A program made the position numbers and the translations under genes. Of a stretch of 64,000 bases of DNA, positions 3,810-51,012 are shown one piece after another. Below the pieces are notes generated by a model, which searched no databases, was not told where the DNA came from, and was given only the letters and a program-made list of their open reading frames with translations. The DNA lies in contig NZ_OY284433.1 of assembly GCF_958304185.1 (NCBI RefSeq), positions 372,001 to 436,000 on the forward strand, given 5' to 3'. Position 1 is the stretch's first letter. The number at the start of each line of letters is the position of its first letter. This DNA is from an uncultured Erythrobacter sp. (GTDB lineage: Bacteria; Pseudomonadota; Alphaproteobacteria; Sphingomonadales; Sphingomonadaceae).

Positions 3810-4622
3810 TCAGAAGCGGTAGCTTACCACCGCTTTGACTGTTTGGAGATTGAAGTCGTCGTTGGCCCGAAGGAAATCGACGCCGCCTGCCAGCACGAAC
3901 GGGTTCGTTGCTGGTGCCGAGCCCTGACCGACGCGGATCAGCGTGTCATCGTCGTTATAGCCGGTGTAAAGATACTCAACGCCGACCGAAAATTTCTTGC
4001 CGATCTTCTGCTCAATGCCAGCGCCAACCTGGTAGCCCCAGGCCTTGTCATCGGCAATCACGGTGAAGGAGTTGGCGGTGTTGCTCGTCTCGAACTCCTG
4101 GTCGAGTTTGGCATAGGCAAGGCCGCCTGTGAGATACAACAGGGTCGACGTCGCCGGGGTGAACCCGGCGCGTAGGCGCAGCGCGGCGGTGTAATCGATC
4201 TCGCGCTCCATGTAATAGAACGCCGGCGTGGTGCTGAAGGCCGATACGGCATCGCGCACGTCGGCAGTGCCGACTTCGCCCACCAGACCCACGACCAGCT
4301 TCCCCATCTGGCTGTCATAGCCGAAGCGGCCATTGAAAGAGACGCCGTCGGAATCGGACTCGCAGTTCGCGTTCTGCGGCGAGGTCGCGGCACCGCCGCA
4401 GAACCCTGGCGAGAAGGCATTGGCGCCCGCAGCGGTGGTCACGGTTTCGCCGAAGCTCCCGTTCGATCCGCGGTCGAAGGAGATGAACTCATCCCCGTCG
4501 CTCGCCTGGAAGTCGTAGCCGACCGAGGCGCCGGCATAGAAGCCCTCGAACTCGTCTTCAGCATTGACGGGCACGGCGACCAGAATGGTCGAAGCGGTGG
4601 CGGCGAGGAAAATTGCTTTCAT
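3810..4622 (-). CDS. Outer-membrane beta-barrel protein (porin/OmpA-like surface antigen family)
   Basis: A 270-residue exported protein. The start at 4622 is chosen because it gives a signal peptide (MKAIFLAATASTILVAVPVNA, cleaved before EDEFEG) with AGGAG 7 nt upstream; the longer frame to 4742 adds a non-signal N-terminus. The mature part has the alternating pattern of an 8-stranded barrel (FYAGASVGYDF, LRLRAGFTPA, WGYQVGAGIEQKIGKKFSVG, EYLYTGY) and ends VKAVVSYRF, with a terminal Phe for BAM recognition. The cargo or role is unknown. It lies downstream of, and in the same orientation as, the ECF/anti-sigma pair with a 180-bp gap, so it could be a target of that sigma factor; I see no diagnostic promoter. 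Confidence 0.82.
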   Translation of the reverse strand: MKAIFLAATASTILVAVPVNAEDEFEGFYAGASVGYDFQASDGDEFISFDRGSNGSFGETVTTAAGANAFSPGFCGGAATSPQNANCESDSDGVSFNGRFGYDSQMGKLVVGLVGEVGTADVRDAVSAFSTTPAFYYMEREIDYTAALRLRAGFTPATSTLLYLTGGLAYAKLDQEFETSNTANSFTVIADDKAWGYQVGAGIEQKIGKKFSVGVEYLYTGYNDDDTLIRVGQGSAPATNPFVLAGGVDFLRANDDFNLQTVKAVVSYRF

Positions 4623-4801
4623 GAGATGCTCCTGGAAATCGCGATTCTTGTGAACTTCACGTGCGCGAGAAAGCGGGGCGACTGCCGAGACAATCGTCCT
4701 GTCGGCACCGATGGCGCCAATAGCCGGCTGCAAATATGACATCGCAGCCCGCTCTCTCTGGTGAAGATACGAGGATCTGAAGACGATCAGATGCGGCAGG
4801 C

Positions 4802-5509
4802 TCAGATCGCTGAAATTTTTCCTGTCGCGATCGGCGTGGCGCTTGGTGCCGTGTGAGGCGCACCTTCCGGGGACTCCAGCGAAACCGCAAGAATAGCGCC
4901 GTCGACCACCAGCGGTCTCAGGCGTTCAGGCAGCATCACCTGCGTCGTGCCAATGGATGCAATCAGGCCCAGCGAGCGGGGCACGCCATCGCCGGGAATG
5001 ACCCAGAGTTCAGGCGTCAGGTCGGTATCGGGCAGAGCGACTGCTCGAATGTCGAGATACTGGCTTTGGGGTCCGATGCTGGCAGCGAGCAAGGTTCCGT
5101 CTCCCCCTGCAAGCTGGGCGATGACCACGGGCGCAGGGCTGGAGGCGGGGGGCAAGGCGCCGTCCTCGCGCAAGGAAATCGGACCGAACAGCATGATCGC
5201 TGCGAGGCTTGCCGCAATCGCTCCTGAAAGCGCGGCGGCGCTTTGCCAAAGACGGAGCTTGCCGACCTCGCCGGTGTTCCGGTTGTCATCCAGCCGCGCA
5301 TCAATCGCCGCCCACAAGTCGGGAGGCGGAGCTTCCTCAAACGCTTCGCTTAGGGGATCGAGGCGTTGCTGCCACTCCATGACCTGCGCAGCGAAGGTTG
5401 GGTTGGCCAATGAAAGCCGCAAGGCTTCGGCCCGCTCCTCTCCTTCGAGCACCCCGAGAGCAAGCTCGGCTGCCAAGGCGGCCTGTTCAGGTGTGAGTTC
5501 GTCAGTCAC
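4802..5509 (-). CDS. RskA-type anti-sigma factor
   Basis: A 235-residue anti-sigma factor of the RskA/anti-sigma-K type. The N-terminal cytoplasmic domain (about 1-85) should hold the ECF sigma factor. One membrane segment follows (about 88-107, AAALSGAIAASLAAIMLFGP), then a periplasmic C-terminal domain with the family's ELWVIPGDGVPRSLGLI motif and PEGAPHTAPSATP near the end. It overlaps the upstream sigma gene by 8 bp, indicating translational coupling. In this family regulated proteolysis of the anti-sigma releases the sigma factor; the inducing signal cannot be read from sequence. Confidence 0.88.
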   Translation of the reverse strand: MTDELTPEQAALAAELALGVLEGEERAEALRLSLANPTFAAQVMEWQQRLDPLSEAFEEAPPPDLWAAIDARLDDNRNTGEVGKLRLWQSAAALSGAIAASLAAIMLFGPISLREDGALPPASSPAPVVIAQLAGGDGTLLAASIGPQSQYLDIRAVALPDTDLTPELWVIPGDGVPRSLGLIASIGTTQVMLPERLRPLVVDGAILAVSLESPEGAPHTAPSATPIATGKISAI

Positions 5510-6071
5510 CTTGGAGGCACCCCCGCAACTCTAGCAAGCCTCTGCGAATCCAGCTTTTGGTTGTCCCGAGCGGCGTTCGCATTGTGGTTGCGAGCTCCGA
5601 ATGGCTCAATCCGTCGAAAAAGGCGAGCGTGATGGCACGCTGCTGTTGGGGCGCAAGGGCCTCAAGACAGTCAAAAATCTGCGCACGATCCTCGTCCGCT
5701 GCCATCACGGCCAGCGCTTCATCCAACCCGGCGTCGCCTGCTTCGGCTGTGCCGGGCACGCTCAGTGCGGGGCAGCCATGCTTGCGCACCCAATCAATGG
5801 CGGTATTCCGGGCGATGGCGCATAGCCACGTTATGGGGCTGGCAAAATCAGGATTGAAGCGTCCAGCGCGGCTCCAGACCTTAAGATATACGTTCTGGAG
5901 GATGTCATCTGCGGCATCGCGATCGCGTGCGATCCGAAGACACACGCCGTAGAGTTTTGCCGAGGTACGATCGTAGACGGCGTTCAGCGCTCTTCGGTCT
6001 CCGCGCGCGACTAGCGCTATCAGGCCGGACAGCTCTGCACGTCTGGCGTCGGCATTGTTGGCTGTCGGCAT
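5502..6071 (-). CDS. ECF RNA polymerase sigma factor (SigK/RpoE-like)
   Basis: A 189-residue group-IV sigma factor. Region 2 spans about residues 25-95 (YGVCLRIARDRDAADDILQN, ITWLCAIARNTAIDWVRK) and region 4 about 135-185 (LAPQQQRAITLAFFDGLSHS, then a recognition helix near TPLGTTKSWIRRGL). There is no region 1 or 3. It is co-transcribed with the RskA-type anti-sigma. The nearby bufferin locus carries two SigF-type promoter motifs that this factor might read, but I find no copy of that motif upstream of the sigma gene itself (6072-6290), so autoregulation by that motif is not supported. Confidence 0.92.
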   Translation of the reverse strand: MPTANNADARRAELSGLIALVARGDRRALNAVYDRTSAKLYGVCLRIARDRDAADDILQNVYLKVWSRAGRFNPDFASPITWLCAIARNTAIDWVRKHGCPALSVPGTAEAGDAGLDEALAVMAADEDRAQIFDCLEALAPQQQRAITLAFFDGLSHSELATTMRTPLGTTKSWIRRGLLELRGCLQGD

Positions 6072-6290: not shown

Positions 6291-7679
6291 TCAATGCTTT
6301 CTCAGAAATTCCTGTGCCAATCGTTTAAACTCGCTTGGTGCCGTCATCAGAATGAAGTGAGGCGCACGATCAATCGGGACCAAAACGATGTCTCCCGAGG
6401 CCTTTAGTTTGGCAACGTGCTCGTCGGCACCATGATACGGCGTCTTAGGGTCGAGCGTTCCTTGAAGCACGATTGACGGCGGAATTGAGGCGGGCAGAAC
6501 ACCAAAACTTGCGTCGCGTTCATATGTGGGAATGCCGCCTGCCAACAACAACGCGGGCAATGGGCTGGCAAATAGGTAGTCCTTGGCTTCGTGATCGATT
6601 ACATCGACTGTCAGGTTAGGACGCGCGTTGTTTTCCGAGCGACTGATCAAACTTACCAGCGGAACTGAAGATTCGCTTTGCGGATAGTGCATAAGCGCGG
6701 AGGCCTTCGCGCTTAGCCGATTGGTCGCGTACCTGAGCCAGGCAGGATCGTTGGCCTGCAAGCCAGCGATGACATTGGGAAGCATCGCCCGGGTCTCGGT
6801 AAAGTCGAGCAGCGCCGACAGCTTATATTTCAGATTTCCATCGGCCAATTCCGCAATGTTCTCCTTTTCTAGGAGCCGACGGACCGCTTGTTCTGCGGCC
6901 TCGGGAAAGTACCGACGGCATTCGGGGCGTGTGTCGCAATCGCGCAGCACCTCTCGGCCGACCCTATCGGTCACGGCTGATCTGTGACTGAGGTCCAAGT
7001 GGGTATCGGTTTCGAGCGGAACGAGAGAATCGAGAATGACACCGTCAATATCTGTTTGAGCGCCAAAGGAGAGCAGCCGCAATACCAGCTGTGTTCCGTA
7101 AGATACGCCGTAGATGTACCTTCGCTCACCGCTGCCAAGGCGGGATAACAACTCATCGAGATCGCGCGCAGCGTTTGAGATCGTGAAGGACTTTGTCCGG
7201 CCGGGCTGTTCGTTCAGCGAGCCAAAGCAGGTGCCCCATTCCTCGTCAGCCAGCGCCCTGCCTGCTTTGCTCGCTGGTCCCTCCTCATCTGGGCAAAGCC
7301 TAGACGAAAACCCGGTCCCGCGATGATCGGGAACGAGCAAGTCGAACCCCGGCGCTGCTTCTCGCAATGTATCGATGAAGGGGTAGAACGATGCGCCAGA
7401 TTCACCAGGGCCGCCTGCAATCAACCACAATTGGCCTTCCGCAACGCCTTCTGCTGGAAACTTCCTGACGAAGAGATCAACTGTGCCGGCGTCCGGTGCC
7501 GCATGATCGAGCGGCACTGCGACTAATGTACATTCTGTCGCCATTAGCGATGCGTGCGACACCCCGTCCTCACATGGCGAAAATGCACTAGGCACAACTT
7601 CACCGTGCGCATTGGCTGACGTCGCCAGTGCGCATGCGGCGAGGGAAAACGTGATCAGGCGAAGCATAGAGGGCGTCAT
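6291..7679 (-). CDS. Exported alpha/beta hydrolase, S33/TAP-like peptidase family
   Basis: A 462-residue secreted hydrolase. A signal peptide (MLRLITFSLAACALATSANA, cleaved before HGE) favours the ATG at 7679, 10 bp after the BufC stop; an ATG at 7703 would overlap BufC by 14 bp. Motifs of the prolyl-aminopeptidase/TAP family are visible: oxyanion segment GGPGESG, nucleophile elbow GVSYGTQ, Asp in QGTLDPKTPY and His in RAPHFILM. It is the last gene of the minus-strand bufferin operon, which suggests a periplasmic role linked to the bufferins, such as trimming a precursor. That link is inference; the substrate is unknown. Confidence 0.85.
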   Translation of the reverse strand: MTPSMLRLITFSLAACALATSANAHGEVVPSAFSPCEDGVSHASLMATECTLVAVPLDHAAPDAGTVDLFVRKFPAEGVAEGQLWLIAGGPGESGASFYPFIDTLREAAPGFDLLVPDHRGTGFSSRLCPDEEGPASKAGRALADEEWGTCFGSLNEQPGRTKSFTISNAARDLDELLSRLGSGERRYIYGVSYGTQLVLRLLSFGAQTDIDGVILDSLVPLETDTHLDLSHRSAVTDRVGREVLRDCDTRPECRRYFPEAAEQAVRRLLEKENIAELADGNLKYKLSALLDFTETRAMLPNVIAGLQANDPAWLRYATNRLSAKASALMHYPQSESSVPLVSLISRSENNARPNLTVDVIDHEAKDYLFASPLPALLLAGGIPTYERDASFGVLPASIPPSIVLQGTLDPKTPYHGADEHVAKLKASGDIVLVPIDRAPHFILMTAPSEFKRLAQEFLRKH

Positions 7680-7689
7680 TTTCTCACGC

Positions 7690-8517
7690 TTATTCACGGG
7701 CATTTGAACCAGTGGCTTGGTCTGTCGGCTGCAGCGCGGACCTTAGCCCAGTGATCAGCCCGATTTCGATCCAGTTCCGCAACATCCCACCCGCTGCTGC
7801 CGCGACCTGCGATGCTTCGACATTGTTCGACAAGATGGTGCACACATCGCCGAAGCTGCCCCCTCTCAGAATTTCCGTCGGTGCCAGTCCTTCCGCTGAC
7901 GGGATCAGCCCGAACACGGGCATCTCACCTTCACGCCACAAGAGCACCCACTTCTGTTCTGCAAGCCTAGCGACCTCCACCTCATTCAGTGGGTCGGCCA
8001 GCGTCGCCCACAGCTTGACCAGATCAAACGACACGGCTCGCAAAGCCGTCCCGGGCATGATCTCGAAGCGCAGTCCGTCCCACTGGCCGGTGTCGAACCC
8101 TGTAGTTGCCGCAGCGAAATCGGCCAATGTCATGGGCACAGCGTCAGCGGCAGTGAATGCGCGGTGCATTGACCATTCAAGCCATGCCACTTCGCCCACG
8201 TCAGCATCGTTGGCGAACAGATCGGCGCAGACCTCCCAGAAGCCCTCACCCGCCAGATCGATGGTCCAGCTTGCCGGAGGGTTCGTGATGAGATGGTGCG
8301 CCGCCGCCTGCACGAAGGCGTCCTCGCCAACCAAGCGGGCCGTGCGTTCAAAGGTGCTGCGCAAGACATCGATGAGCCGCTGCCGGTAAGCGTTGCGATA
8401 GACGGCGATGCCTGCTGCCCGCCGTGCATCCCATCCTGGCGGTAAGGGTGCGCTCTCATCAAGGAGACAGGCCATGAAATCGGTCTGGGCGCGCAATAGC
8501 TGGGTCATGCCGGACAT
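7690..8517 (-). CDS. bufC: BufC-type DUF2063 protein, bufferin maturation partner
   Basis: A 275-residue DUF2063 protein. The N-terminal domain (LRAQTDFMACLLDESAPLPP, RAAGIAVYRNAYRQRLIDVL, FERTARLVGEDAFVQAAAHH) is the one found next to DUF692 enzymes, where it serves as precursor recognition/partner protein for the MNIO enzyme. The C-terminal part (LLWREGEMPVFGLI) is typical of the family. Its start overlaps the 3' end of the DUF692 gene by 13 bp, so the two are translationally coupled and probably form a complex. It corresponds to GigB in the gold-induced gig cluster of Cupriavidus, as I recall that nomenclature. Confidence 0.88.
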   Translation of the reverse strand: MSGMTQLLRAQTDFMACLLDESAPLPPGWDARRAAGIAVYRNAYRQRLIDVLRSTFERTARLVGEDAFVQAAAHHLITNPPASWTIDLAGEGFWEVCADLFANDADVGEVAWLEWSMHRAFTAADAVPMTLADFAAATTGFDTGQWDGLRFEIMPGTALRAVSFDLVKLWATLADPLNEVEVARLAEQKWVLLWREGEMPVFGLIPSAEGLAPTEILRGGSFGDVCTILSNNVEASQVAAAAGGMLRNWIEIGLITGLRSALQPTDQATGSNARE

Positions 8518-9341
8518 TCAGCCCGCGCGGCGCCCGCGACCCGCCGTGCCCGGTCAAGTTCAGCCAGCAGATCAGCCAAGGGCGGGAGCGCATCGTCCCA
8601 TTCAACCATCACAGCAACATCGCCAAGCACGCGACTTGCCTGCCCGAAAAGGTGCCATACCTCTTCGCAAACAGGCCGGTCATGCGTGTCGATCATGATG
8701 TCGCCCGGTGTATGTCCGGCCAAGTGGACCTGACGTACCCGGTCTGCTGGTATCCCGCTGAGATAATCAGCGGGATCGAAGCCGTGGTTGCAGGCGCTTA
8801 CGTAGATATTGTTGATATCGAGCAGTAGATAACAGCCCGTTCGCTGGCTCATTTCCGTCAGAAACTCCCATTCGGTCAGCTCGTCTTGCGGAAAGGTGAG
8901 GTAGCTTGACGGGTTTTCGAACAGCATCGCCCGGCCCATTGTGTGCTGGGCGTGGTCGATATTCTCGCACACGGTCTGCATAGACGCGCGCGTGAGCGGT
9001 AGCGGCAGCAGATCGTGGCTATTATGCGCGCCTGTCCGCGTCCAGCATAGGTGATCGGATACCCAGAGAGGCTCGATCCGATCGACTAGTGACTTAAGCC
9101 TGCCGAGATGATCAAGGTCCAACCCATCGGCCGAGCCGATCGACATTGATACGCCGTGCAGGATTACGGGCAGCTTCTGCCTTACCTGTTCGAGCACACG
9201 TAGCGGCCGGCCGCCGTCGACCATGAAGTTTTCGGATATCACCTCGACGAAATCGACATCGACATTGCCTGCGATGAAGTCGCGGTAATGATCGCGGCGC
9301 AGGCCAACACCGAACCCGCCGAATGCCGAGATGTCTGCCAT
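8505..9341 (-). CDS. bufB: BufB-type DUF692 multinuclear non-heme iron oxidase (MNIO)
   Basis: A 278-residue DUF692 enzyme with a TIM-barrel fold. The start at 9341 (MADISAFGGFGVGLRRDHY) is chosen because AGGATA lies about 8 nt upstream; the frame extends to 9404 without an RBS. Metal ligands of the family are all present: HGVSMSIGS, SDHLCW, ENPSSYL, DINNIYVSACNHGFD, HLAGH, DTHDRPV and EWDD. MNIOs modify Cys residues of peptide substrates, giving thiooxazole or oxazolone/thioamide groups that bind copper. The likely substrates are the two Cys-rich precursors encoded at 9420-9710 and 9899-10183. Confidence 0.93.
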   Translation of the reverse strand: MADISAFGGFGVGLRRDHYRDFIAGNVDVDFVEVISENFMVDGGRPLRVLEQVRQKLPVILHGVSMSIGSADGLDLDHLGRLKSLVDRIEPLWVSDHLCWTRTGAHNSHDLLPLPLTRASMQTVCENIDHAQHTMGRAMLFENPSSYLTFPQDELTEWEFLTEMSQRTGCYLLLDINNIYVSACNHGFDPADYLSGIPADRVRQVHLAGHTPGDIMIDTHDRPVCEEVWHLFGQASRVLGDVAVMVEWDDALPPLADLLAELDRARRVAGAARAECPA

Positions 9342-9360
9342 CGCTGATATCCTATGATGC

Positions 9361-9411
9361 AAAAAATGGCCCGGTGGACTTGAAGGGGGGGGAGGTAAAC
9401 CCACCGGGCCA
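9361..9411 (-). terminator. Intrinsic terminator between BufA2 precursor and BufB
   Basis: On the minus strand a perfect 11-bp stem TGGCCCGGTGG / CCACCGGGCCA with a 23-nt loop is followed by six U residues (A6 at 9361-9366 on plus). It begins 9 bp after the BufA2 stop and ends 20 bp before the BufB start. It should stop most transcripts after the precursor and let a minority continue into bufBC, which would give precursor in excess over enzyme. Confidence 0.85.
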
Positions 9412-9419
9412 GAGCGGGA

Positions 9420-9710
9420 TCAGCCAAGGTCGCCGATCGTTCCGCCCTTCGAGAGGCACTCGCCTGCCTTCATCGCCTTGAAGCCGTGGCCCTTGCAGGC
9501 GTTCTGGCCCTTGCATTCATGTTCTGCGGTGGCGCAGTCGGAATTGCCCTTGCAGCTGTGCAGACCATAACAGTGCACGGTTTCATCGGCGCTGAGGGCA
9601 CGGCCCTTGCTGCCGTTCGGCGCATCGGCGGCAAAAGCCGCAAACGAGGTCAGCGCGATGGCTGCCGCGGTTGCAGCAATCGAAGCGGTCGCTCGCGTTG
9701 CTTTGATCAT
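9420..9710 (-). CDS. bufA2: BufA2-type bufferin precursor, exported Cys-rich peptide
   Basis: A 96-residue precursor. The ATG at 9710 gives a clear Sec signal peptide ([21 protein letters not shown], cleaved before ADAPNG) with AAGGAA upstream; the frame to 9749 lacks one. The mature part holds six Cys in repeated motifs HCYG, SCKG, DCAT, ECKG, ACKG and ECLS, the pattern of the BufA2 family. Bufferins are RiPPs whose Cys are modified by DUF692/MNIO enzymes before export and which bind copper in the periplasm. The gene heads the minus-strand operon bufA2-bufB-bufC-hydrolase and has its own SigF-like promoter at 9759-9784. Confidence 0.88.
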
Positions 9711-9758
9711 CTCATCGGTTCCTTCTGCAGGGATGGTGCAGGATCGCACAGCACATCG

Positions 9759-9784
9759 TTCGCCGCAGCACCGCTGCCGGTTAC
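9759..9784 (-). promoter_or_regulatory. SigF-like ECF promoter of the bufA2 operon
   Basis: Reading the minus strand: GTAACC (9784-9779), 16 bp, CGAA (9762-9759). This matches exactly the GTAACC-N16-CGAA motif I recall for the Caulobacter SigF regulon, which includes DUF2282/DUF692 genes. Transcription would begin about 9752, leaving a 5' leader of about 40 nt before the ATG at 9710. Confidence 0.75.
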
Positions 9785-9808
9785 AGCCATCAAAGTTTCA
9801 CAGGATCT

Positions 9809-9834
9809 GTAACGCCGCCCCGCAGTCGGGCGAA
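9809..9834 (+). promoter_or_regulatory. SigF-like ECF promoter of the bufA1 operon
   Basis: GTAACG (9809-9814), 16 bp, CGAA (9831-9834) differs from the minus-strand motif by one base in the -35 element. Transcription would begin about 9841, about 58 nt before the bufA1 ATG. The two promoters are back to back with their -35 elements 24 bp apart, so the two operons are probably induced together. Confidence 0.7.
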
Positions 9835-9898
9835 CAGGCAGCAGGTGATGACCGGGCCAAGCGCCGGCGCTGCCTTTCTCAAACTGGAGACAATCACG

Positions 9899-10183
9899 AT
9901 GAAAACTGAAGCCCTATCTCGCATCGCCTTTCTGGCCGTCACCGCAGCGCTCGTGACCAGCGTCACCTCAGCTCCTGTCGCCGCACAGAAGCCCGCGATG
10001 GAAAAATGCTACGGCATCGCCAAGTCCGGACAGAATGACTGTTCGGCCGGCCCCGGCACCAGCTGCGCCGGAACGTCGACCCGCGATTACCAGGGCAACG
10101 CCTGGAAACTGGTCAAGCAGGGCACCTGCGAAAAGACCAAGACGCCCAAGGGCAATGGTTCGCTGAAGCCGATCAATCGCTGA
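9899..10183 (+). CDS. bufA1: BufA1-type (DUF2282) bufferin precursor
   Basis: A 94-residue DUF2282 protein. The ATG at 9899 has GGAG about 10 nt upstream and gives a signal peptide ([21 protein letters not shown], cleaved before QKPAME). The mature part carries four Cys in the DUF2282 pattern [20 protein letters not shown], then [12 protein letters not shown]. It differs from the six-Cys BufA2 encoded divergently 190 bp away. It is followed after 25 bp by a DoxX gene, with no second DUF692/DUF2063 pair in this window, so bufBC at 7690-9341 probably act on both precursors. Confidence 0.9.
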
Positions 10184-10208
10184 CGCTGACAACAGGCAGG
10201 ACCAGACA

Positions 10209-10673
10209 ATGCATCACATCGCCCAATGGCACGATCGGATCGTGGCCATCCTCGCTTCGCGACTGTCAGAGGGCGTTGTGCTGCTGCTGGCCCGCATCGC
10301 GCTTGCCGGCGTGTTCTGGCGTTCCGGCCGCAGCAAGGTGGCGGAGGGAAGTGTGTTCGAGATCAGCGAGTCGACCCGGTATCTGTTCGAGAATGACTAT
10401 GCCGGAGTCCCGCTGTCTGCTGAAATTGCCGCCCCTTTGGCCACCGCTGGAGAACACCTTTTCCCTCTGCTGTTGGTGATCGGGCTGGCTACCCGGCTGT
10501 CAGCGGGCGCTCTGCTGGTCATCACGCTCGTTATCCAGATTTTCGTGTACCCGGAAGCTTGGTGGACGACACACATTCTGTGGGTCGCACTGGCGGCCGT
10601 CCTGATTGTGCGCGGCGGCGGGGTGCTGTCCTTCGACACGTTGACTGGCTATTGGCGCGCATCTGCTTTGTAG
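10209..10673 (+). CDS. DoxX-family membrane protein of the bufferin locus
   Basis: A 154-residue DoxX-type integral membrane protein with about four hydrophobic segments (about 22-40, 78-95, 97-116, 122-140). It contains the family's ARIALAGVFWRSGRSK opening and LFPLLLVIGLATRLSAGALL core. DoxX proteins recur in bufferin/gig operons (GigT) and are thought to serve membrane redox or quinone chemistry; the biochemical role there is not settled. Co-transcribed with bufA1 (25-bp gap). Confidence 0.88.
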   Translation: MHHIAQWHDRIVAILASRLSEGVVLLLARIALAGVFWRSGRSKVAEGSVFEISESTRYLFENDYAGVPLSAEIAAPLATAGEHLFPLLLVIGLATRLSAGALLVITLVIQIFVYPEAWWTTHILWVALAAVLIVRGGGVLSFDTLTGYWRASAL

Positions 10674-10769: not shown

Positions 10770-12017
10770 ATGAGCACATCTATCATCACACGCGTTCGCG
10801 ATCTCGTCACATCAAGCACCATGACCCGCGCTGGTCTCGCCCGCGCCGCCGGTCTTCACGCCAACACCTTGCGCGATTGCACTGAGGACACGTGGAACCC
10901 GACCGCCGAGACCCTCGCCAAACTTGATGCCTTTCTTGAGGCCAATGCCGACCGCCCGGTGCTCGCCACGATCGAGGAGATTATCGACGAGGCGCGCAAT
11001 GGGCGGATGTATATCCTGGTCGACGATGAAGACCGCGAGAACGAGGGCGATCTCATCATCCCCGCGCAGATGGCGACCCCGCAAGCGATCAACTTCATGG
11101 CGATGTATGGCCGCGGGCTGATCTGCCTGGCGCTGACCAAGGAGCGCGTCGAGACGCTCGGGTTGCAGCCGATGAGCCGCAACAACAAGGAATCAATGCA
11201 AACCGCCTTCACCATCTCGATTGAGGCGAAGGAAGGCGTCACCACCGGCATTTCGGCGGCAGACCGCGCCCGCACGATCTCGGTCGCGATTGACGCAGCC
11301 AAGGGCGCGGATGATCTTGTCACCCCCGGCCACGTCTTCCCGCTGACGGCGCGCGACGGCGGCACGCTAGTGCGCGCAGGCCATACCGAGGCCGCAGTCG
11401 ATATTTCGCGTCTGGCAGGGCTCAACCCCTCGGGCGTGATCTGCGAGATCATGAACGAGGACGGGACGATGGCCCGGCTCGATGATCTGGTGAAGTTCGC
11501 GCGCAAGCATGATCTCAAGATCGGCACGATCCGCGATCTGATCGCCTATCGGATGCGCAATGACCACTTGGTCGAGCGGCTCAACGAGCGCGCCTTCACC
11601 TCCGATTACGGCGGCCAATGGCGCATGATCACCTATCGTGACCGCGTCGCGGGCAGCGAGGCCTATGTGCTGCAAAAGGGCCACGTCATCCCCGGTGAAC
11701 CCACCCTCGCCCGCGTCCATCCGATCTCGGTGTTCGACGATGTGCTGGGCGCTCCGGGTGCGCGCAAACGCACGCTCCAACGCGCGATGCAGGCGATTGG
11801 CACGCATGGTTCGGGCGTGATCGTGATCCTGACCGGGCGTGTCGGGACGGGCGAATGGCGGCCGGACGAAGAGCTGCGCAATATCGGCATTGGCTCGCAG
11901 ATCCTTGTCGACCTCGGCGTATCCGACATGGTGCTGCTGTCGAACAGCCGGCCCGATTACGTCGCGCTCGAAGGCTATGGCCTGACCATCACCGACTTCC
12001 ACCCCATTCCGGAGTAA
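10770..12017 (+). CDS. ribB: 3,4-dihydroxy-2-butanone-4-phosphate synthase with N-terminal HTH and degenerate GTP cyclohydrolase II domain
   Basis: A 415-residue protein in three parts. Residues 1-60 are an XRE-like HTH ([20 protein letters not shown], then [14 protein letters not shown]). Residues 65-270 are the DHBP synthase, with active-site segments [11 protein letters not shown] and PGHVFPL...[10 protein letters not shown] intact; it makes the four-carbon unit of riboflavin from ribulose 5-phosphate. Residues 285-415 resemble GTP cyclohydrolase II, but the zinc-binding Cys of the ECLTGD/CDCG motifs are absent ([20 protein letters not shown]), so this domain is probably not catalytic. It is followed by ribH (5-bp gap). 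The HTH plus the palindrome upstream suggests autoregulation. No FMN riboswitch is visible. Confidence 0.93.
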
Positions 12018-50963: not shown

Positions 50964-51012
50964 TGTGTAACGTCCTTTGCGCGAGTCGCGAATTAGGTTC
51001 AGGAAGTGCCAC

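Follow-up and report, generated by a model that had tools for sequence, protein, structure and literature searches.

Can one bufferin-modifying enzyme complex serve two precursor peptides of different families? This question is raised by a locus at positions 7690 to 10673 of a 64,000-nucleotide stretch of DNA from an uncultured Erythrobacter sp. (NZ_OY284433.1, positions 372,001 to 436,000; hereafter, the window). Two groups of genes run away from each other here: (i) bufA2-bufB-bufC, leftwards from 9710 to 7690, encoding a six-Cys precursor, an MNIO enzyme and its DUF2063 partner protein; and (ii) bufA1-doxX, rightwards from 9899 to 10673, encoding a four-Cys precursor of the DUF2282 family and a DoxX protein. 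We consider it likely that the products of both precursor genes are bufferins that buffer copper in the periplasm and that one modifying complex serves both; this reading best explains the evidence as a whole. The initial annotation put the two-substrate idea forward; as a possibility, it had appeared in print in 2025 (PMC12452194; this and the other papers are cited for the sections covered here). That paper describes precursors in tandem as well as genomes in which several precursors stand against a single MNIO pair, and it asks for further work on the question whether one such pair modifies more than one precursor. The general possibility is thus already known; what we describe is a bufferin locus that is real, recurs among relatives and combines two precursors with one BufBC.

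A single BufB/BufC pair in the genome

We searched the genome assembly (3,288,895 bases in 5 contigs, 99.99% complete) with profiles of both enzyme families. Only one DUF692/DUF2063 pair had been noticed locally, and the search gave the same count genome-wide: one PF05114 match and one PF09836 (DUF2063) match, with no further PF05114 match at E<=0.1 and no further PF09836 match at E<=1. A second bufBC pair, named beforehand as the observation that would count against sharing, was looked for across the genome and not found. One PF10048 (DUF2282) match lies above the cut-off; two more DUF2282 matches (E 0.64 and 0.84) lie below it and contain stop codons. Because a single BufB/BufC pair was found, one MNIO probably modifies both precursors, if both are modified. 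The proposal of one MNIO for two precursors is supported by this count and made likely by relatives that lack bufA2 and keep bufBC beside bufA1 (see below). We rejected a chance layout, as the curated models score well above their cut-offs and the layout recurs in related genomes.

It is highly improbable, in our judgment, that an enzyme from a different family, with its gene at another place in the genome, modifies BufA1. A search limited to PF05114 and PF09836 found no support for such an enzyme; the lack of a second PF05114 match speaks against it, as does the use of an MNIO with a DUF2063 partner in the DUF2282 pathways described (PMC12452194, PMC13097082).

The layout recurs among relatives

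Far from being the local oddity for which it was first taken, the divergent arrangement is a recurrent locus of the family. We sampled 149 genomes of the same family and found MNIO in 48, DUF2282 in 46 and BufA2 (above cut-off) in 30. Exactly one MNIO match is present in 20 of the 30 BufA2-bearing genomes, and 18 of these 20 also have DUF2282. In the two without DUF2282 (G025 and G135), bufA2 lies on a contig of about 5 kb. Another BufA2-bearing genome, G018, has two partial MNIO matches on two contigs.

We then sorted 91 BufB loci of the family and the genus by reading their contexts, mostly 8-10 kb; where the Cys pattern missed a precursor, a family-model match decided the class (e.g., L096, L156, L195, L202 and L211). 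The layout counts exclude G202, whose bufBC stretch reads N. Canonical loci, with bufA1, bufB and bufC colinear, number 27, and the window's layout was found in 24 (window included). Eight loci have the parts of the window's layout with a gene for an extracytoplasmic function (ECF) sigma factor between the halves, 21 have the window's layout without bufA2 (A2-less), six have bufA2 with no bufA1 seen (some at contig ends), and five are of other kinds.

Named GTDB records (80 loci kept, overlapping the family sample in part) place the layout in Qipengyuania, Pontixanthobacter, Sphingomonas, Sphingobium, Novosphingobium, Croceicoccus and others; Erythrobacter longus (L256) is an example of an A2-less species. 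MNIO matches were counted for 47 of the 80. The layout, counted whether or not an ECF gene separates its halves, is present in 25 of the 47, of which 24 bear the names of Sphingomonadales genera and one that of an 'Alphaproteobacteria bacterium'. One MNIO is present in 21 of the 25 and two in the other four. Beyond the order, bufA1-doxX is followed at a distance, on the same strand, by bufA2-bufB-bufC in two Dyella, one Luteibacter, seven Pseudomonas loci and Cupriavidus necator. Among 19 genomes counted in this wider group, 17 have two to four MNIO matches and two, both Cupriavidus, have one. A colinear two-precursor layout in Duganella was dropped, as bufC does not follow bufB in L278 and no bufA1 was seen in L310. 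We note separately that in G073 (L114 and L166) no BufA1 motif was found beside a canonical BufB-BufC-DoxX-ECF cluster; the only DUF2282 match of this genome, of the type with a TPKG tail, is on another contig.

A clade without bufA2 as a natural experiment

MNIO is present in 37 of 61 sampled genomes of the same genus. Eight of the 37 have bufA2 facing bufA1, seven have canonical loci only, and 22 have bufB facing bufA1-doxX without bufA2 (one of these, G152, is cut off within bufB). No BufA2 motif was found in the 22 A2-less loci, nor in the 20 A2-less gaps checked frame by frame. A whole-genome search of the 22 genomes with the BufA2 model (E<=0.01) returned two weak matches only, one over the BufA1 of G206 and one in a 43-aa frame with stops in G188, neither of which is a BufA2 gene by context.

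In a tree of concatenated BufB and BufC, the 21 A2-less rows form one clade (93/84) nested inside the two-precursor rows. This tree excludes L097, L121, L228 and the A2-only, canonical and other classes; BufB pieces shorter than 200 aa (L119, L121, L122 and L228) were left out of the BufB tree and of the residue table discussed below. The BufB tree alone requires two losses of bufA2, and the BufC tree and the concatenation require one each, so two independent losses were not kept and we claim only at least one. BufA1 is under purifying selection, with a median dN/dS of 0.087 in A2-less loci (119 pairs) and 0.124 in dual-precursor loci of the same genus (24 pairs). It is the only precursor recognised beside the persisting bufB-bufC of the A2-less clade. 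Because bufBC persists with BufA1 as its sole recognised adjacent precursor, the simplest account is that a Buf2-type BufBC, that is, one of the type found in bufA2 operons, would modify BufA1 in this clade.

Could only BufA2 be modified, with BufA1 an unmodified Cys peptide, or one with another role alongside DoxX, that lies beside bufBC by history? This alternative is named in PMC12452194, and it would fit a BufB that carries the Buf2-type Asp (see below) and a DoxX that adjoins bufA1, not bufBC. We nevertheless hold it unlikely, given a clade of 21 loci that keeps bufB-bufC without bufA2 and given the rarity of DUF2282 without a genomic MNIO (21 of 4,072 genomes; PMC12452194, Table 3). The retention of Cys residues points the same way in three divergent BufA1 that our search pattern missed (L096, L211 and L228), all of which have four. 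For 52 divergent BufA1 of the family set the Cys count is circular, since the search pattern that selected them requires four Cys, and "four Cys in 52/52" was dropped as a test.

The two precursors look like distant homologues

The initial annotation called the two Cys patterns unlike, but they look homologous. Comparison of 33 BufA1 with 31 BufA2 sequences (the window's included) by hhalign, in profiles whose rows were chosen by Cys patterns, gave a probability of 95% and E 7e-8. The alignment pairs CYG with CYG, NDC with SDC, SCAG with the following C-K-G, and the last Cys with the last Cys. An earlier comparison of different loci, with rows likewise chosen by Cys pattern, gave a probability of 52% and E 1.5e-4, with 0 of 20 column shuffles as high. 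Direct cross-searches between BufA1 and BufA2 with hidden Markov models gave no matches; the NCBIfam BufA2 model, which is independent of our choice by Cys pattern, gives matches below its cut-off on DUF2282 genes (E 1e-5 to 5e-9). Structural models of the two bufferin families are related (PMC12452194). BufA1 and BufA2 therefore look like distant homologues, and from the profile alignment and the related structural models BufA2 looks like the same frame as BufA1 plus two extra Cys. Modification in Buf1 falls on the central Cys, and a disulphide joins the outer two (PMC12452194). The TPKG tail of BufA1 was rejected as a mark of enzyme sharing, since L298 and (as TSKG) L270 have the tail together with their own bufBC.

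An active-site residue of BufB follows precursor type

How BufC chooses its substrate was the question first asked of this locus. The choice may not rest on BufC alone, as a residue in the active site of BufB follows precursor type. MNIOs of Cys-Lys substrates have an Asp after the catalytic Asp, modelled as touching the substrate Lys, and the site varies in DUF2282 enzymes (PMC13097082). In the family and genus set, this Asp is present in 36/38 A2-linked, 0/27 canonical BufA1 and 12/21 A2-less enzymes, and the window's own BufB has it. The canonical BufA1 enzymes have 20 Thr, 3 Ser, 3 Asn and 1 Ala at the site; the A2-less enzymes without Asp have 6 Glu, 2 Gly and 1 Ala.

By parsimony, the site changed six times on A2-less branches (length 5.06) and twice on the rest (17.46), and no stronger excess on A2-less branches was found among 162 other columns with at least five changes. 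The branch test gives a binomial p of 0.0024 by length and 0.0052 against the column background, for what is one clade's history. The window's BufA1 sites, NDCS and SCAG, have no Lys after Cys, and BufA2 also has a DC-Ala site; an enzyme that handles BufA2 would thus already meet a BufA1-like DC site, if that Cys is modified.

L140 (G116) and L265 (G146, Qipengyuania flava) are the only A2-linked enzymes in the family set that lack Asp, and they stand beside variant forms of BufA2 (a CKG altered to CNG; CYG altered to CYD). Elsewhere, enzymes without Asp (e.g., L250, L277 and L304) stand beside ordinary-looking BufA2.

Promoter patterns of the sigmaF type

In Caulobacter, sigmaF recognises GTAACC-N16-CGAA ahead of CC2907 and CC3254, with which the two DUF692/DUF2063 operons of that organism begin (PMC3511200). 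The window has three matches to GTAACS-N16-CGAA against 0.11 expected in 64 kb, two of which lie in the divergent gap, one per direction (Table 1); the third (50967-50992, plus strand) is about 40 kb from the bufferin genes. For the relatives we counted patterns within 420 bp upstream, with precursors located by Cys pattern only. The pattern precedes bufA1 in 20/25 and bufA2 in 18/22 loci of the window's layout, bufA1 in 20/20 and bufB in 18/22 A2-less loci, and canonical bufA1 in 22/26. A reversed-pattern control gave 0 in every locus class. Genome-wide the pattern is not enriched (10 matches versus 19 for the reversed pattern), and we therefore put weight only on the local pair and on the site at the ECF-NrsF pair described next.

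An ECF gene follows doxX in 21/25 loci of the window's layout and in 22/22 A2-less loci, with an NrsF-like gene after it in the three loci examined (L198, L194 and L138). The window has no ECF gene beside doxX, and neither has the close relative G171 (L203). The window's genome has a single NrsF match (153 bits), at a distance of about 857 kb; it adjoins an ECF gene, and a sigmaF-type pattern stands immediately before this pair (L240 2937-4108; C1 1237436-1238607 of the genome). At sequence level, then, the locus has the promoter pattern upstream and its genome an ECF-NrsF pair, as expected of a sigmaF regulon.

A row of genes at 3810-6071 on the minus strand, encoding an ECF sigma factor, an RskA-type anti-sigma factor and an outer-membrane beta-barrel protein, is apparently unrelated to the sigmaF-type system. 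We regard the ECF/RskA pair (4802-6071) as an unlikely regulator of the locus because its ECF reaches no more than 167 bits with the profile built from the ECF of relatives (others 240 to 412) and because the only NrsF lies elsewhere, beside another ECF.

Observations that weigh against sharing

Several observations count against a BufBC shared by both precursors. BufA1 could be unmodified here. Sharing is not universal, as 9/30 BufA2-bearing genomes of the family have at least two MNIO matches. The A2-less clade may reflect a single loss and so be one natural experiment, and the search for precursors in its genomes was aimed at known types only. In the 80 named loci, which overlap the family and genus set in part, Asp is present in 54/63 A2-linked enzymes; because the nine exceptions, mostly in Massilia, Duganella, Dyella and Luteimonas, have Ala or Gly, Asp is common but not required for BufA2. 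An independent-pairs comparison of the Asp residue comes to 2 pairs only and has no power. The promoter pattern is less frequent where an ECF gene lies between the halves (bufA1 4/7, bufA2 3/8).

Finally, a second DUF2282 gene, a possible substrate of BufBC, is present in 19/22 A2-less and 3/8 A2-bearing genomes (Fisher p 0.016, not corrected for kinship). This raises the alternative that BufBC may act on both precursors here, but that its substrate in the A2-less relatives is an unseen precursor of another kind or the second BufA1 alone, in which case the natural experiment would not bear on the divergent BufA1. Examples of such second genes are L126 3887-4204 and L127 3557-3940, which stand alone with a lipobox-like signal (AAAC-SGG) and a sigmaF-type pattern upstream. 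The second copies examined are nevertheless of BufA1 type, so a Buf2-type BufBC would still handle a four-Cys precursor, and the divergent BufA1 stays under strong purifying selection; we consider this alternative very unlikely. The signal of L126 and L127 suggests a BufA1 anchored in the membrane. A stand-alone DUF2282 gene in L130 (G123, C22 880-1026) has its last conserved Cys replaced (GTR for GTC) and is perhaps decaying.

Gene calls and neighboring genes

All five genes lie where the initial annotation placed them, with bufA2-bufB-bufC on the minus strand and bufA1-doxX on the plus strand (Table 1). The divergent gap, given there as 190 bp, measures 188 bp between the chosen start codons; for bufB we chose the ATG at 9341. 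The bufB product has the motif VEWDD, in which Asp follows the catalytic Asp. The six Cys of the bufA2 product lie in HCYG, SCKG, SDC, ECKG, ACKG and GEC; the bufA1 product has four in its mature part (KCYG, NDC, SCAG and GTC) and a TPKGxGSL tail. Both precursors have a signal-peptide-like start, judged by eye. Unlike in a Buf1 operon, in which bufA1 is directly followed by its own bufB-bufC, doxX comes next after bufA1. BufC scores 15.3 bits against the NCBIfam HvfC model (cut-off 142) and DoxX 45.6 bits against the HvfX-family model (cut-off 80), both below cut-off.

Table 1. Features of the bufferin locus (positions in the window)
Feature	Position	Strand	Description
bufC	7690-8517	minus	DUF2063 partner protein; PF09836 62 bits (cut-off 27), residues 10-95
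bufB	8505-9341	minus	MNIO enzyme; PF05114 354 bits; NF050167 MNIO_BufB 372 bits (cut-off 310)
Inverted repeat	9361-9411	minus	Between bufA2 and bufB; 11-bp perfect arms, 23-nt loop, then six T
bufA2	9420-9710	minus	Precursor; NCBIfam NF050166 Cu_RiPP_BufA2 103 bits (cut-off 60)
Divergent promoter region	9711-9898		188 bp between the two start codons
SigmaF-type pattern	9759-9784	minus	GTAACC-N16-CGAA, 48 bp before bufA2 start
SigmaF-type pattern	9809-9834	plus	GTAACG-N16-CGAA, 64 bp before bufA1 start; one base off the published form
bufA1	9899-10183	plus	DUF2282 precursor; PF10048 85 bits (cut-off 22.4)
doxX	10209-10673	plus	PF07681 60 bits; begins 25 bp after bufA1

The inverted repeat folds mildly better than shuffles (z -1.42; 22/200 shuffles equally stable), and a standard terminator scan (loops 3-8) found no terminator between bufA2 and bufB. 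Perfect stems with T-rich tails follow bufA2 in 7/22 loci of the window's layout, versus 0.027 per shuffled sequence. The repeat is a possible partial terminator, and it could lower the amount of enzyme relative to precursor.

Two neighbors complete the picture. A secreted-looking alpha/beta hydrolase is encoded at 6291-7703 (minus strand), where the longest frame starts inside the end of bufC, as if co-operonic; among the context loci a homologue was found only in the close relative G179 (L198; 570 bits), also after bufC. At 10770-12017 (plus strand) lies a gene for a RibB/GTP cyclohydrolase II-like protein, whose N-terminus is weakly helix-turn-helix-like (E 0.014, below cut-off).

A model for the locus and its origin

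Gene content, the single BufBC, recurrence, the nesting of the A2-less loci, the residue pattern and the promoter patterns are direct observations. The model built on them goes further: that either peptide is modified and by what chemistry, that it is exported and binds copper, how the genes are transcribed and by which route the locus evolved are all inferred. A sigmaF-type ECF factor, probably the one next to NrsF elsewhere in the genome, would read both back-to-back promoters, and bufA2-bufB-bufC and bufA1-doxX would be made together. BufC would present each precursor to BufB, which would oxidise the central Cys of both, probably to 5-thiooxazoles; both peptides would then be exported by Sec and bind copper. 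Under this model a BufB of Buf2 type, whose Asp suits Cys-Lys sites, would also accept the Cys-Ser/Ala sites of BufA1, the Cys scaffolds being homologous.

Loss of bufB1-bufC1 from a Buf1 operon that lay divergently next to a Buf2 operon is the probable origin of the layout. Caulobacter sp. S45 (L270) and G020 (L097) each have both operons complete and divergent, A1-B-C-DoxX on one side and A2-B-C on the other. This is likely the ancestral form, and removal of bufB1-bufC1 from it would yield the window's layout. We give roughly even chances to a fuller history, in which a bispecific Buf2-type BufBC took over the Buf1 precursor and, in one Erythrobacter clade, became the BufA1 enzyme outright after bufA2 was lost, with the Asp of the Cys-Lys pocket drifting. 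If so, the A2-less clade would already contain a series of intermediate stages in which a RiPP (ribosomally synthesized and post-translationally modified peptide) enzyme changes substrate.

The locus, its relatives with two operons and the clade without bufA2 all bear on how MNIO complexes choose their precursors. Within one family they offer matched sets of enzymes (A1-only, A2-only, both, and formerly both) and one candidate specificity residue. If one BufBC does serve both precursors, counts of bufABC operons underestimate bufferin use, because bufA1-doxX units depend on the enzymes of a neighbor.

Comparison with known systems

Among the listings and the sections of text that our literature search covered, no account of the divergent arrangement or of the A2-less clade was found. 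Among described systems, the locus resembles the Buf1 (DUF2282) operon, such as Caulobacter CC3254-3257 beside sigF-nrsF (PMC3511200, PMC12452194), in its BufA1-type precursor, its DoxX and its sigmaF-type promoter pattern, and the divergent loci with and without bufA2 share the ECF gene after doxX in 43/47 cases. It differs in having no bufB-bufC between bufA1 and doxX, in a BufB of Buf2 type, and in the distance to its genome's ECF-NrsF pair.

With the Buf2 (six-Cys, Cys-Lys) operon it shares the order bufA2-bufB-bufC, the Cys-Lys motifs and the Asp after the catalytic Asp; unlike that operon, it has a Buf1-type precursor, without modifying genes of its own, on the far side of a shared promoter region. 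The fontiphorin/oxazolin captophorins (EGKCG, Lys-Cys), as presented in the sections of PMC13097082 covered here, also combine an MNIO with a DUF2063 partner, and Cys-to-thiooxazole chemistry is reported there. Their precursors have EGKCG repeats and their enzymes an active-site Phe, both different from the window.

Also comparable are the tandem-precursor clusters and multi-precursor genomes described in PMC12452194, which likewise have several precursors and one MNIO/PME-type 1 pair. In contrast to the tandem clusters as described in that text, the window's precursors come from two different families and are divergently arranged, and the A2-less clade adds evidence beyond co-occurrence.

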